From Myxococcota bacterium (lineage in GTDB: Bacteria > Myxococcota_A > UBA9160 > SMWR01), in the NCBI GenBank assembly GCA_039030075.1, contig JBCCEW010000001.1, forward strand, positions 186,001 through 250,000: a stretch of 64,000 bases of DNA, given 5' to 3'. Position numbers and translations under genes: made by a program. Shown here piece by piece: positions 16,813 through 20,504 of this stretch (position 1 is the first letter of the stretch; each line of letters starts with the position of its first letter). Below the pieces are notes generated by a model. That model ran no database searches. It was not told the DNA's origin and saw only the letters and a program-made list of their open reading frames with translations.

Positions 16813-17265
16813 TCAGCGCGCCCCGGGGCCGCGCTGGGCTTTGAGGTCGCGCCGGCCGAGGCGGCGGCCGTCGGCGGCGCGCACCTCCATGCGGGGCACC
16901 CGACGTCCGCTCTTGCGATCGTGGAAGACCAGGGGCTCGTTGCCGCGGCCGAAGACCCAGTCATCGCTCCATTCGCGGAGCGACGTCAGCACCGGCAGCA
17001 GGGCCTCGCCCTTCTCGGTGAGGACGTACTCGTAGCGGGTGCCCTGGGTGCCCGCGTCGACCCGCTCGAGGATCTCGCTCTCGACCAGCCGGTTCAGGCG
17101 GTCGCTGAGCACGTTCTTCGCGATGCCGAGATCCGCCTGGAAGTCGGCGAAGCGTCGGATGCCGAAGAAGGCATCGCGGACGATCAGCAGGGTCCACCAA
17201 TCGCCCAGGACGTCCAGCGCCTGGGCGATTCCGCACTGCATGTGATCGAAGCGGGTGCGACTCAC
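16813..17265 (-). CDS. HxlR-family winged-helix transcription regulator
   Basis: 150 residues. MQCGIAQALDVLGDWWTLLIVRD and the following GIRRFADFQADLGIAKNVLSDRL are the HxlR hallmark, including the recognition helix region (about residues 35-62). HxlR proteins are dimeric repressors or activators, often sensing reactive or toxic compounds. The start is a GTG without an obvious ribosome site; TAGGCT lies only about 10 bases upstream, so a leaderless mRNA is possible. A strong dyad lies in the divergent gap to the molybdopterin oxidoreductase gene, its likely target. Confidence 0.92.
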   Translation of the reverse strand: MSRTRFDHMQCGIAQALDVLGDWWTLLIVRDAFFGIRRFADFQADLGIAKNVLSDRLNRLVESEILERVDAGTQGTRYEYVLTEKGEALLPVLTSLREWSDDWVFGRGNEPLVFHDRKSGRRVPRMEVRAADGRRLGRRDLKAQRGPGAR

Positions 17266-17292
17266 AGTCAGGACAGCCTACCGCAGATCGTC

Positions 17293-17322
17293 GGATTCTG
17301 GTTGCATGAAGCAACCAAATCC
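17293..17322. promoter_or_regulatory. Dyad operator candidate between the HxlR and molybdoenzyme genes
   Basis: TGGTTGC (17299-17305), five-base spacer ATGAA, GCAACCA (17311-17317) are perfect inverted arms. The symmetry extends outward to GGATT (17293-17297) and AATCC (17318-17322) with one unpaired base. It lies in the 97-base divergent gap, about 28-57 bases from the HxlR start and 41-70 from the oxidoreductase start. Dyads of this kind next to an HxlR gene are commonly its binding site. Confidence 0.65.
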
Positions 17323-17362
17323 TGGATGCTCTCGTGGCGCGCACCTTCACCAGGAGACTCCC

Positions 17363-19633
17363 ATGGCGACCACCGCGAAGAACACGGAATGGCACTCCAC
17401 CGCCTGCATTCTCTGTGAGTGCAACTGCGGGATCGAGATCCAGCTGGGTGGAGAGGACGGCCGTCGCTTCACGCGCATCCGCGGCGACAAGAAGCACGTC
17501 ATGTCGAAGGGCTACGCCTGCGAGAAGCCGTCGCGCCTCGACTACTACCAGAACGGTCGCGACCGACTGCTGACGCCCCAGCGCCGGCGCGCGGACGGAA
17601 CCTACGAGTCGATCGACTGGGACACGGCGATCCGCGAGGTGGCCGAGCGCTTCTCCGCGATCCGCGACGAGCACGGCGGGGAGTCGATCTTCTACTACGG
17701 CGGCGGCGGTCAGGGGAACCATCTGCCCGGCGGCTACTCGCGCACGATCCGTTCGGTGCTGGGCTCGCGCTATCGCTCGAACGCCCTGGCCCAGGAGAAG
17801 ACCGGCGAGTTCTGGGTGGCCGGCAAGATGAGCGGCTGCATCACGCGCGGCGACTTCGAGCACTGCGAGGTCGGGGTCTTCATCGGCAAGAATCCCTGGT
17901 TCAGTCACAGCATGCCCCAGGCCCGGCTCACCCTGCGCGAGATCGCGAAGGATCCGAAGCGCAGCATGATCGTGATCGATCCGCGGCGCACCGAGACGGC
18001 CGACCTGGCCGACTTCCACCTGGCGGTGAAGCCGGGCGCGGATGCCTGGCTGCTCTCGGCGATGATCGCCGTGATCGTGCAGGAAGACCTCGTCGACAAG
18101 GCCTGGGTCGAGGCCCACACCGAGGGCGGCGAAGAGATCCTGCCCCACTTCGCGAGTCTCGACATCGCGACCTACTGCGAGAGGTCGGGCGTTCCCGAGG
18201 ACCAGGTGCGCGCGGCCAGCCGCCGCATCGCGGCGGCGGAGAGCGTGGCGCTCTTCGAGGACCTCGGGGTCCAGATGAACCGCCACTCGACGCTGGTCAG
18301 CTACCTGCACCGGCTGATCGCCTTCACGACGGGGAACTTCGGGAAGAAGGGAGCGATGTACTCGCCCGCCTCGCTCCAGCCCCTCGGCTCCTCGGGGGGT
18401 GGCGGCCAGCGCACCAGTCCGGTGGCGGGGGCGCGCATCATCTCCGGGCTCGTTCCGTGCAACGTGATCCCCGAGGAGATCCTGACCGACCACGAAAAGC
18501 GCTACCGCGCCATGCTCGTGGAAGCGGCGAATCCGGTGCACTCGCTGGCCGACAGCCGGCGCATGCGCGAGGCCTTCGAGGCCCTCGACTTCGTCGTGGT
18601 GATCGACGTGGCGATGACCGAGACGGCGCGTACGGCCGACTACGTGTTGCCGGTGTCGTCCCAGTTCGAGAAGGCGGAGGCGACGTTCTTCAACTTCGAG
18701 TTCCCCCACAACTACTTCCATCTGCGCCGGCCGCTGCTCGAGCCGCCGGACGGGCTCTTCTCGGAAGCCGAGCTTCACGCCCGCCTGGTCGAGGCGATGG
18801 GCGAGATGCCCACCGAGGCCGTGGAGGCGCTGCGCACCGCTTGGGACGAAGGCCGCGTCCCGTTCCGGGAGAAGTTCTTCGAGTTGTTGAGCAGCCAGCC
18901 GAATTTCTTCGCCCTGGCCCCGGTGGTGCTGTTCCGCGCGATCGGTGACAAACTCCCGCATCGGCTCGCCGAAGGCGCGGTGCTCTATGCGCTCTGCCAC
19001 ATGGCGGCGCAGAAGAATCCGGACTCGATCCGGCGCGCGGGCTTCGAAGGCGAGGGCCTCGACCTCGGGGACGCGCTCTTCGACGGTGTGCTCGCCGGGG
19101 AGAGCGGCGTGATCTTCTCGGTCGACGACTGGGATACCAGCTGGGAGCGGGTGTCCCGGGCGGACCAGCGGATCCAGCTGTCGATTCCCGAACTGCGCGA
19201 AGAACTCGAAGGCCTCGAGGACAGTGCGCCGATCGCGGGAACGGCCGAGTTTCCGTTCCTGCTGTCGGCGGGAGAACGACGCTCCTTCACAGCGAACACG
19301 ATCGTGCGCAACCCGGAATGGCGGAAGAAGGACGCCGGGGGGGCGCTGCGCATCCACCCCGAAGACGCCCAGGAGCTGGGCCTCGCCGATGGGGGCCGCG
19401 CGCGGCTGTCGACGCGTCGCGGAGCCACCGAGGTGAGCGTCGAGCTCTCCGACCGGATGCAGCGCGGCCACGTGTCGATCCCGAACGGTCTGGGACTCGA
19501 CTACCCCGACGAGAGCGGCGCGCGGCAGCCGACCGGCGTCTCGCCGAACGAGCTGACGGCGGCCGAGGATCGGGACTGGCTCGCCGGGACCCCCTGGCAC
19601 AAGAGCACCCTGGCCCGGGTCGAAGCGCTGTGA
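17363..19633 (+). CDS. Molybdopterin-dependent oxidoreductase (DMSO reductase family)
   Basis: 756 residues; ATG with CAGGAG upstream. The N-terminus has the [4Fe-4S] motif C-x2-C-x3-C in ACILCECNCGIEI and a fourth Cys in KGYACEKPSR. The molybdopterin core follows (YYGGGGQGNHLPGGY, IGKNPWFSHSMPQ, IVIDPRRTETAD), and the C-terminal dinucleotide-binding barrel ends near ERRSFTANTIVRNPEWR and SIPNGLG. No Tat signal is seen, so it is probably cytoplasmic. Related enzymes include formate dehydrogenases, but the substrate cannot be told. There is no adjacent iron-sulfur or membrane subunit gene. It is divergent from an HxlR regulator and followed by a GST. Confidence 0.92.
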   Translation: MATTAKNTEWHSTACILCECNCGIEIQLGGEDGRRFTRIRGDKKHVMSKGYACEKPSRLDYYQNGRDRLLTPQRRRADGTYESIDWDTAIREVAERFSAIRDEHGGESIFYYGGGGQGNHLPGGYSRTIRSVLGSRYRSNALAQEKTGEFWVAGKMSGCITRGDFEHCEVGVFIGKNPWFSHSMPQARLTLREIAKDPKRSMIVIDPRRTETADLADFHLAVKPGADAWLLSAMIAVIVQEDLVDKAWVEAHTEGGEEILPHFASLDIATYCERSGVPEDQVRAASRRIAAAESVALFEDLGVQMNRHSTLVSYLHRLIAFTTGNFGKKGAMYSPASLQPLGSSGGGGQRTSPVAGARIISGLVPCNVIPEEILTDHEKRYRAMLVEAANPVHSLADSRRMREAFEALDFVVVIDVAMTETARTADYVLPVSSQFEKAEATFFNFEFPHNYFHLRRPLLEPPDGLFSEAELHARLVEAMGEMPTEAVEALRTAWDEGRVPFREKFFELLSSQPNFFALAPVVLFRAIGDKLPHRLAEGAVLYALCHMAAQKNPDSIRRAGFEGEGLDLGDALFDGVLAGESGVIFSVDDWDTSWERVSRADQRIQLSIPELREELEGLEDSAPIAGTAEFPFLLSAGERRSFTANTIVRNPEWRKKDAGGALRIHPEDAQELGLADGGRARLSTRRGATEVSVELSDRMQRGHVSIPNGLGLDYPDESGARQPTGVSPNELTAAEDRDWLAGTPWHKSTLARVEAL

Positions 19634-19655: not shown

Positions 19656-20504
19656 GTGGGCGACGCCGTGAGTGCGACGTCTCCGGAAGGGCCGGTCCTC
19701 CGGCTCTTCTCCTACCTGCCCAACCCGCGGCTGGCGAAAGCCACGATCGCCGCGCGCCTGTGCGGCCTGGATCTCGAGACCCGCGGTGCGAAGCCGCCGG
19801 AACTCGCGAACTGGCTGTGGGATTTCGAGGCGCGTCCACTCGCGCCGGGCGAGGCCGATGCCTCCGACACGGAGCGCCAGGCCCGGACCGGCTTCCAGGG
19901 GAAGCTCCACAAGACCGACGCGTTCCTCGACGCGCATCCTTTCGGCACGGTTCCCGCGGCGTTCAGCCCCGACGGTCGCGTGGGGATCTTCGAGTCGAAC
20001 AGCATCGCGCGCGCGGTCGCGCGCATCGGCCAGTCGCGCTGCAACCTCTACGGGCACGATGCCTACGAGGCGTCACGCATCGACAGCTTTCTCGATGTGA
20101 GCCTGGTCTTCGCCCGCGCGTCCCAGCGCTATCTGCTGGCGCTGGGCGGTGATCGGCTCGACGCTGTTCTCTACGAAGAAACGCGCGAAGCGTTGACGTC
20201 CTATCTGGCAGGGATGGACCAGGCGTTGGCCCCGGACCGCGCGACACTGGTGGGGGAGGCCTTGAGCCTCGCCGACATCGTGTACGCCGCCGAGATCACC
20301 CTGCTGTGCGGGGAGGGGCGGTCCCTCGCGACGCTCGCGTCCCTCGGCGTGCCTCCGCTGCTCGATGCCGCCGCGAAGGACTTTCCCCGCGCGTGGGCCT
20401 GCTTCGAGCGGTTGTGCGCGCACGCCGCATTCGCACCGGACCTGGGACCCTACCTCGACAAGGTCGCACGCAAGCGGGCCGAGGCCGAGGCCGCGCAGGC
20501 CTGA
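19656..20504 (+). CDS. Glutathione S-transferase-like protein
   Basis: 282 residues. The N-terminal thioredoxin-like domain has LRLFSYLPNPRLAKA, HPFGTVPAAF (cis-Pro) and ESNSIARAVAR, the Glu-Ser glutathione-binding motif; a helical GST-C domain follows (ALSLADIVYAAEITLL). The layout is like eukaryotic EF1B-gamma-type GSTs with a short linker. It could conjugate or reduce an electrophile related to the preceding molybdoenzyme; that is inference. The start is a GTG at 19656, with another in-frame GTG at 19668. It lies 22 bases after the oxidoreductase stop, suggesting one transcript. Confidence 0.85.
   Translation: MGDAVSATSPEGPVLRLFSYLPNPRLAKATIAARLCGLDLETRGAKPPELANWLWDFEARPLAPGEADASDTERQARTGFQGKLHKTDAFLDAHPFGTVPAAFSPDGRVGIFESNSIARAVARIGQSRCNLYGHDAYEASRIDSFLDVSLVFARASQRYLLALGGDRLDAVLYEETREALTSYLAGMDQALAPDRATLVGEALSLADIVYAAEITLLCGEGRSLATLASLGVPPLLDAAAKDFPRAWACFERLCAHAAFAPDLGPYLDKVARKRAEAEAAQA

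Follow-up and report, generated by a model that had tools for sequence, protein, structure and literature searches.

A candidate HxlR operator in the promoter of a divergent molybdoenzyme gene of a Myxococcota bacterium

The locus and its features

The window analysed here is a 64-kb stretch of contig JBCCEW010000001.1 from a Myxococcota bacterium. At its intergenic region 17266-17362 two genes diverge. The gene on the minus strand (16813..17265) starts with a GTG at 17265 and encodes an HxlR-family winged-helix regulator of 150 aa (P0001; Pfam PF01638). The gene on the plus strand (17363..19633) starts with an ATG at 17363, is preceded by the ribosome-binding site AGGAG (17352..17356, plus strand, read directly from the sequence), and encodes a formate-dehydrogenase-like molybdopterin oxidoreductase of 756 aa with one 4Fe-4S domain (P0002; PF00384, PF01568, PF04879). 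Its local neighbour on the same strand (19656..20504) encodes a weak glutathione S-transferase (GST) homologue of 282 aa (PF13409).

Between the two start codons lies the dyad noted in the preliminary description, with TGGTTGC at 17299-17305, ATGAA at 17306-17310 and GCAACCA at 17311-17317. Based on conservation, controls and recognition-helix co-variation, this element (17299..17317) is a candidate HxlR operator. A -35-like hexamer of the predicted molybdoenzyme promoter, TTGCAT (17302..17307, plus strand), lies inside its left arm, and a -10-like hexamer, GATGCT (17325..17330, plus strand), follows 17 bp further on. A second inverted repeat, with perfect 11-bp arms and a 10-nt loop (AATCGCCCAGG/CCTGGGCGATT), lies at 17199-17230 inside the HxlR coding sequence and is probably a coding chance.

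The dyad in the window and the genome

Counting all perfect inverted repeats with arms of at least 7 bp and loops of 3-8 nt, the whole 64-kb window contains 83, or 0.126 expected per 97 bp; 17 of these have at least three A/T per arm (0.026 expected per 97 bp). The dyad is the sole such repeat starting within 17266-17362. It is thus unusual for its place, by itself not overwhelming, and conservation decides. As short perfect repeats are not rare, a chance repeat, or an RNA hairpin acting as terminator or attenuator, has to be weighed. Such an origin is extremely improbable: the predicted start points of the two transcripts are each downstream of the dyad, there is no T-run behind it, and the GTT-N9-AAC layout is retained in orthologues, whose arms are not always perfect.

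A proposed outward extension of the dyad, GGATT (17293-17297) with AATCC (17318-17322), did not hold up. It pairs only by skipping C17298, is thus one base out of register, and is not what relatives conserve. In the operator register the next four positions add a single pair (T17297/A17319), and relatives conserve a different extension, AAT-n-TGGTTGC / GCAACCA-n-ATT.

A search for the dyad elsewhere in the genome, also suggested beforehand, gave no further exact copy in the 5.76-Mb genome. With up to two mismatches there were 22 sites versus 19 for a reversed control pattern, close to the control level and so no sign of a wider regulon. Two sites in the genome have a single mismatch, one (L002) within a long open frame and the other (L003) shortly before a minus-strand gene that may encode a secreted protein. 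The exact 19-mer was also rejected as an unbiased regulon marker across the phylum, being found in 8 of 377 genomes versus 5 for the reversed control; in the seven genomes that carry it outside the window, no HxlR homologue lay within the fetched flanks.

Conservation at divergent gene pairs

The HxlR protein was searched against 377 genomes of the phylum, giving 62 matches with E values of 1e-25 or lower, spread over 51 genomes. Leaving aside the window's own match and two in G343 and G375, 59 regions were fetched, together with that of a weaker own-genome paralogue (L135); these 60 regions and the window make up the first set of 61 loci. Of the 61 loci, 37 have a molybdoenzyme homologue. The two genes are adjacent and divergent at 14 loci, and at 12 they share a strand, with the HxlR gene immediately after the molybdoenzyme gene (tandem). 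The scan with a 14-base consensus took in 28 loci, i.e. the 14 divergent pairs, three near-divergent pairs with an extra gene in between, and 11 others; tandem loci were judged by eye and the remaining, more distant loci were viewed as printed upstream sequence only.

Absence of the dyad upstream of orthologous divergent pairs had been named as an outcome that would speak against an operator. The dyad was present in all 14 divergent pairs of the first set, where the HxlR upstream region matched 10-14 of the 14 consensus bases (shuffled sequence, about 8 of 14 on average; per-locus shuffle p 0.005-0.09). The three near-divergent pairs matched 10-12 bases each, and among the 11 other scanned loci six scored at least 10 and five scored 8-9.

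The second set came from a scan of named genomes in which seven aligned molybdoenzymes served as the query; the best 80 of 542 confirmed candidate loci were kept. By record title these 80 belong to Myxococcota, other Deltaproteobacteria, Acidobacteria, Actinobacteria, Chloroflexi, Gammaproteobacteria, Rubrivivax and others. An HxlR gene stands beside the enzyme gene in 32 of the 80 (20 divergent, 5 tandem, 7 otherwise); in the other 48 no HxlR was found in the fetched flanks, thus the enzyme often manages without a linked HxlR. The dyad, at 10 or more of 14 matches, was present in 17 of the 20 divergent pairs among these best 80; with the four pairs already present in the first set taken out, the independent figure is 13 of 16. 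In a fixed 110-nt upstream window, at least 10 matches were reached at 15/20 divergent, 0/5 tandem and 0/7 otherwise arranged loci of the best 80 and at 8/47 without a neighbouring HxlR, one locus of the last kind having been skipped for too little upstream sequence. Control windows inside the same genes gave 2/20, 0/5, 1/7 and 3/47, respectively. The scoring consensus is the window's own sequence and the sites are best matches, making the 14-base conservation partly circular, and the loci are related by descent, so that counts are not independent.

The eight high-scoring loci without an adjacent HxlR would also suit a site for another, unlinked regulator of both genes. Three or perhaps four of them are convincing: good operator-like sites lie at the molybdoenzymes of L186, L195, L210 and perhaps L184 (Haliea, Halieaceae and Halioglobus records among the best 80), suggesting regulation in trans. 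An unlinked regulator does not predict the match, described below, between the type of site and the recognition helix found in the linked HxlR, and this explanation is very unlikely. In a further arrangement (L166, L190 and L193) the HxlR gene lies upstream of the molybdoenzyme gene on the same strand, and a CCGTTGC-type dyad stands just before the enzyme gene.

Recognition helices and types of site

The recognition helix of the HxlR in the window is GIAKNVLSDRL. In the first set, the corresponding place is occupied by KN in every divergent or near-divergent locus (17/17; RN in L099), versus Arg and then Gly, Ala or Ser in all 12 tandem loci. Upstream of the molybdoenzyme, the tandem loci carry another dyad resembling GTTCTAnnnTAGAAC, whose GTT-N9-AAC spacing is unchanged as judged by eye. 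Second-set helices were examined after those of the first set. Among the best 80 of the 542 loci, KN or RN was found at 17/17 divergent loci bearing the motif, R followed by A or P at 5/5 tandem loci, and PR or PK at the three divergent loci without the motif (L169, L175 and L217), of which L217 carries TGGTATC-N5-GATACCC instead. The correlation of helix and site is free of the circularity of consensus scoring.

In the first-set tandem loci with the GTTCTAnnnTAGAAC-type dyad upstream of the enzyme (L103, L105-L107, L110-L114, L118, L120 and L128), the HxlR gene lies directly downstream of the molybdoenzyme gene and nearly overlaps it. At two other loci, an HxlR paralogue in the same genome as the window (L098; C29:68244-68666) and L100, the HxlR is 54% identical, has the helix AKTLL and is preceded by a dyad of GGTAGC type, not GGTTGC; L100 has a GST homologue downstream as well.

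Promoter layout on both strands

Twenty-seven distinct divergent operators were profiled, with L149, L163, L194 and L198 dropped as first-set duplicates of identical sequence and L169, L175 and L217 left out for absence of the motif. The left arm reads TTG/T-C followed mostly by A-T, i.e. a -35-like hexamer (TTGCnT). A -10-like NAnnnT follows at spacer 17 in 18 of the 27 operators and at spacer 18 in two; elsewhere in the 12-23 range it occurs in 0-2 of 27. The operator sites had been chosen without use of the spacer position, and the preference for spacer 17 is likewise free of the consensus-scoring circularity. With the -35 inside the operator arm and the -10 placed 17 bp on, the molybdoenzyme promoter is most likely closed by HxlR covering the -35.

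On the minus strand, a TAGGCT upstream of the HxlR start and the lack of a ribosome site had been taken as signs of a leaderless mRNA, and orthologue comparison favours this. The -10-like TAGGCT (17275..17280) lies 9 nt before the GTG, and no Shine-Dalgarno-like motif was found before that codon. In 10 of the 17 divergent or near-divergent loci a TAnnnT box precedes the start by 6-9 nt, and a Shine-Dalgarno-like motif is absent before HxlR in 17/17. Seven other loci were scanned; the box is at 6-9 nt in none of them, and five have a Shine-Dalgarno-like motif. The box was picked after sequence inspection, making its count descriptive, and it is missing at that distance in 7 of the 17, so the layout is not universal. 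The HxlR mRNA of the window is probably leaderless. By eye, the molybdoenzyme start codon in L083, L085, L090 and L092 is only 6-7 nt past the predicted -10, and the molybdoenzyme mRNAs of these loci may be leaderless too.

The regulator and its known relatives

The winged-helix domain of P0001 scores 71.3 bits against PF01638 (cut-off 20.8). Its nearest solved relatives are PA1607, YodB and HxlR. The closest, PA1607 of Pseudomonas aeruginosa (2f2e), aligns over residues 2-145 and has the recognition helix AKNILAARL, compared with GIAKNVLSDRL here. The Bacillus subtilis proteins HxlR, YodB and HypR (YybR) are of the same Pfam family (HxlR/DUF24, MarR-like), have a Cys near position 11 and, as predicted here, use palindromic DNA. 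The HxlR-DNA crystal described in PMC7835342 contained CAGTATCCTCGAGGATACTG, that is GTATCC-N4-GGATAC, which resembles GGTTGC-N5-GCAACC in layout; half-site and spacing differ, being GTA-N10-TAC there and GTT-N9-AAC here. In contrast to Bacillus HxlR/DUF24 proteins, P0001 has a longer C-terminal part, common to PA1607, no Lys13 and another target gene.

The single cysteine of P0001, Cys11, is conserved in 17/17 divergent or near-divergent loci of the first set and in all 32 HxlRs found among the best 80 of 542 loci, thus a thiol signal is possible, and electrophile sensing is a possible reading of this conservation. According to the same paper, formaldehyde sensing by B. subtilis HxlR requires a Cys11-Lys13 crosslink (PMC7835342). 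P0001 reads Cys11-Gly12-Ile13, with no Lys two residues after the Cys, and by that account a formaldehyde crosslink of the B. subtilis type is ruled out here.

B. subtilis HxlR is described as a formaldehyde-responsive activator of hxlAB (PMC7835342), and the HxlR of the window could likewise bind the dyad and activate the molybdoenzyme gene. Activation is unlikely, as the -35 hexamer itself lies inside the operator arm at a fixed 17-bp spacing, which favours occlusion, and the Lys13 needed for the formaldehyde crosslink is replaced by Ile13.

The molybdoenzyme and the GST neighbour

P0002 belongs to the broad formate-dehydrogenase-like group, judging by its profile scores. It has domain layout and distant sequence similarity in common with the cytosolic formate dehydrogenase H / acetylene hydratase type, yet falls far below the equivalog cut-offs: against TIGR01591 (formate dehydrogenase alpha) it reaches 226.4 bits where 666.25 are needed, and it is likewise far below the listed specific NCBIfam cut-offs. 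The selenocysteine of formate dehydrogenase H (1aa6) aligns to the Lys of AQEKTG, in a local alignment whose exact register is uncertain. Near residues 141-148 of P0002 an invariant AL[AS]QEKTG appears to stand at the place of that selenocysteine, and QEKTG is found in 79 of the best 80 of 542 named loci. The subfamily may be one without a thiol, selenol or hydroxyl metal ligand.

The GST homologue scores 25.2 bits against PF13409, barely above the cut-off of 25. A related GST is linked to the molybdoenzyme in 3 of the 61 first-set loci and in none of the best 80 of 542 named loci. On this linkage the GST was rejected as a module part, and the earlier suggestion of a three-gene detoxification module is not supported; only the HxlR-molybdoenzyme pair is conserved.

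Interpretation

The dyad is very probably the operator of the divergent HxlR, placed inside the molybdoenzyme promoter where bound HxlR would block RNA polymerase. This is the best explanation on comparative grounds: position and spacing are conserved, the site overlaps the promoter, and it co-varies with the HxlR helix. Physical binding, repression rather than activation, and autoregulation are inferred. In the proposed mechanism an HxlR dimer would sit on the dyad, whose left arm holds the -35 hexamer TTGCAT; with the -35 covered, RNA polymerase would be blocked at the molybdoenzyme promoter. Read on the opposite strand, the operator directly precedes the -10 of the predicted leaderless HxlR promoter, so that bound HxlR would also restrain expression of its own gene. 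Release of HxlR, and with it induction of the molybdoenzyme, would come from a signal that may act on the conserved Cys11.

Recurrence of this arrangement across several bacterial phyla points to a genuine control switch of ordinary type. The regulation is of an already-known kind, to which the HxlR-molybdoenzyme pair adds a new example; in titles and abstract starts of the open-licence literature no description of this pair was found. A wider proposal is tentative and on balance doubtful: a thiol-switched HxlR-molybdoenzyme module of several phyla, with at least two matched helix/operator types and an enzyme subfamily of non-Cys/Sec/Ser ligand, hence of new activity.

A DNA-recognition code of HxlR proteins could be approached from the matched types of helix and operator. 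For a molybdoenzyme subfamily found in uncultured Myxococcota, the locus provides a testable operator and promoter, and among the best 80 of the 542 loci the HxlR-linked molybdoenzyme also occurs in named strains, e.g. Sulfidibacter corallicola M133 and Nonomuraea guangzhouensis. The inducer of HxlR, once found, could reveal the substrate of the molybdoenzyme.
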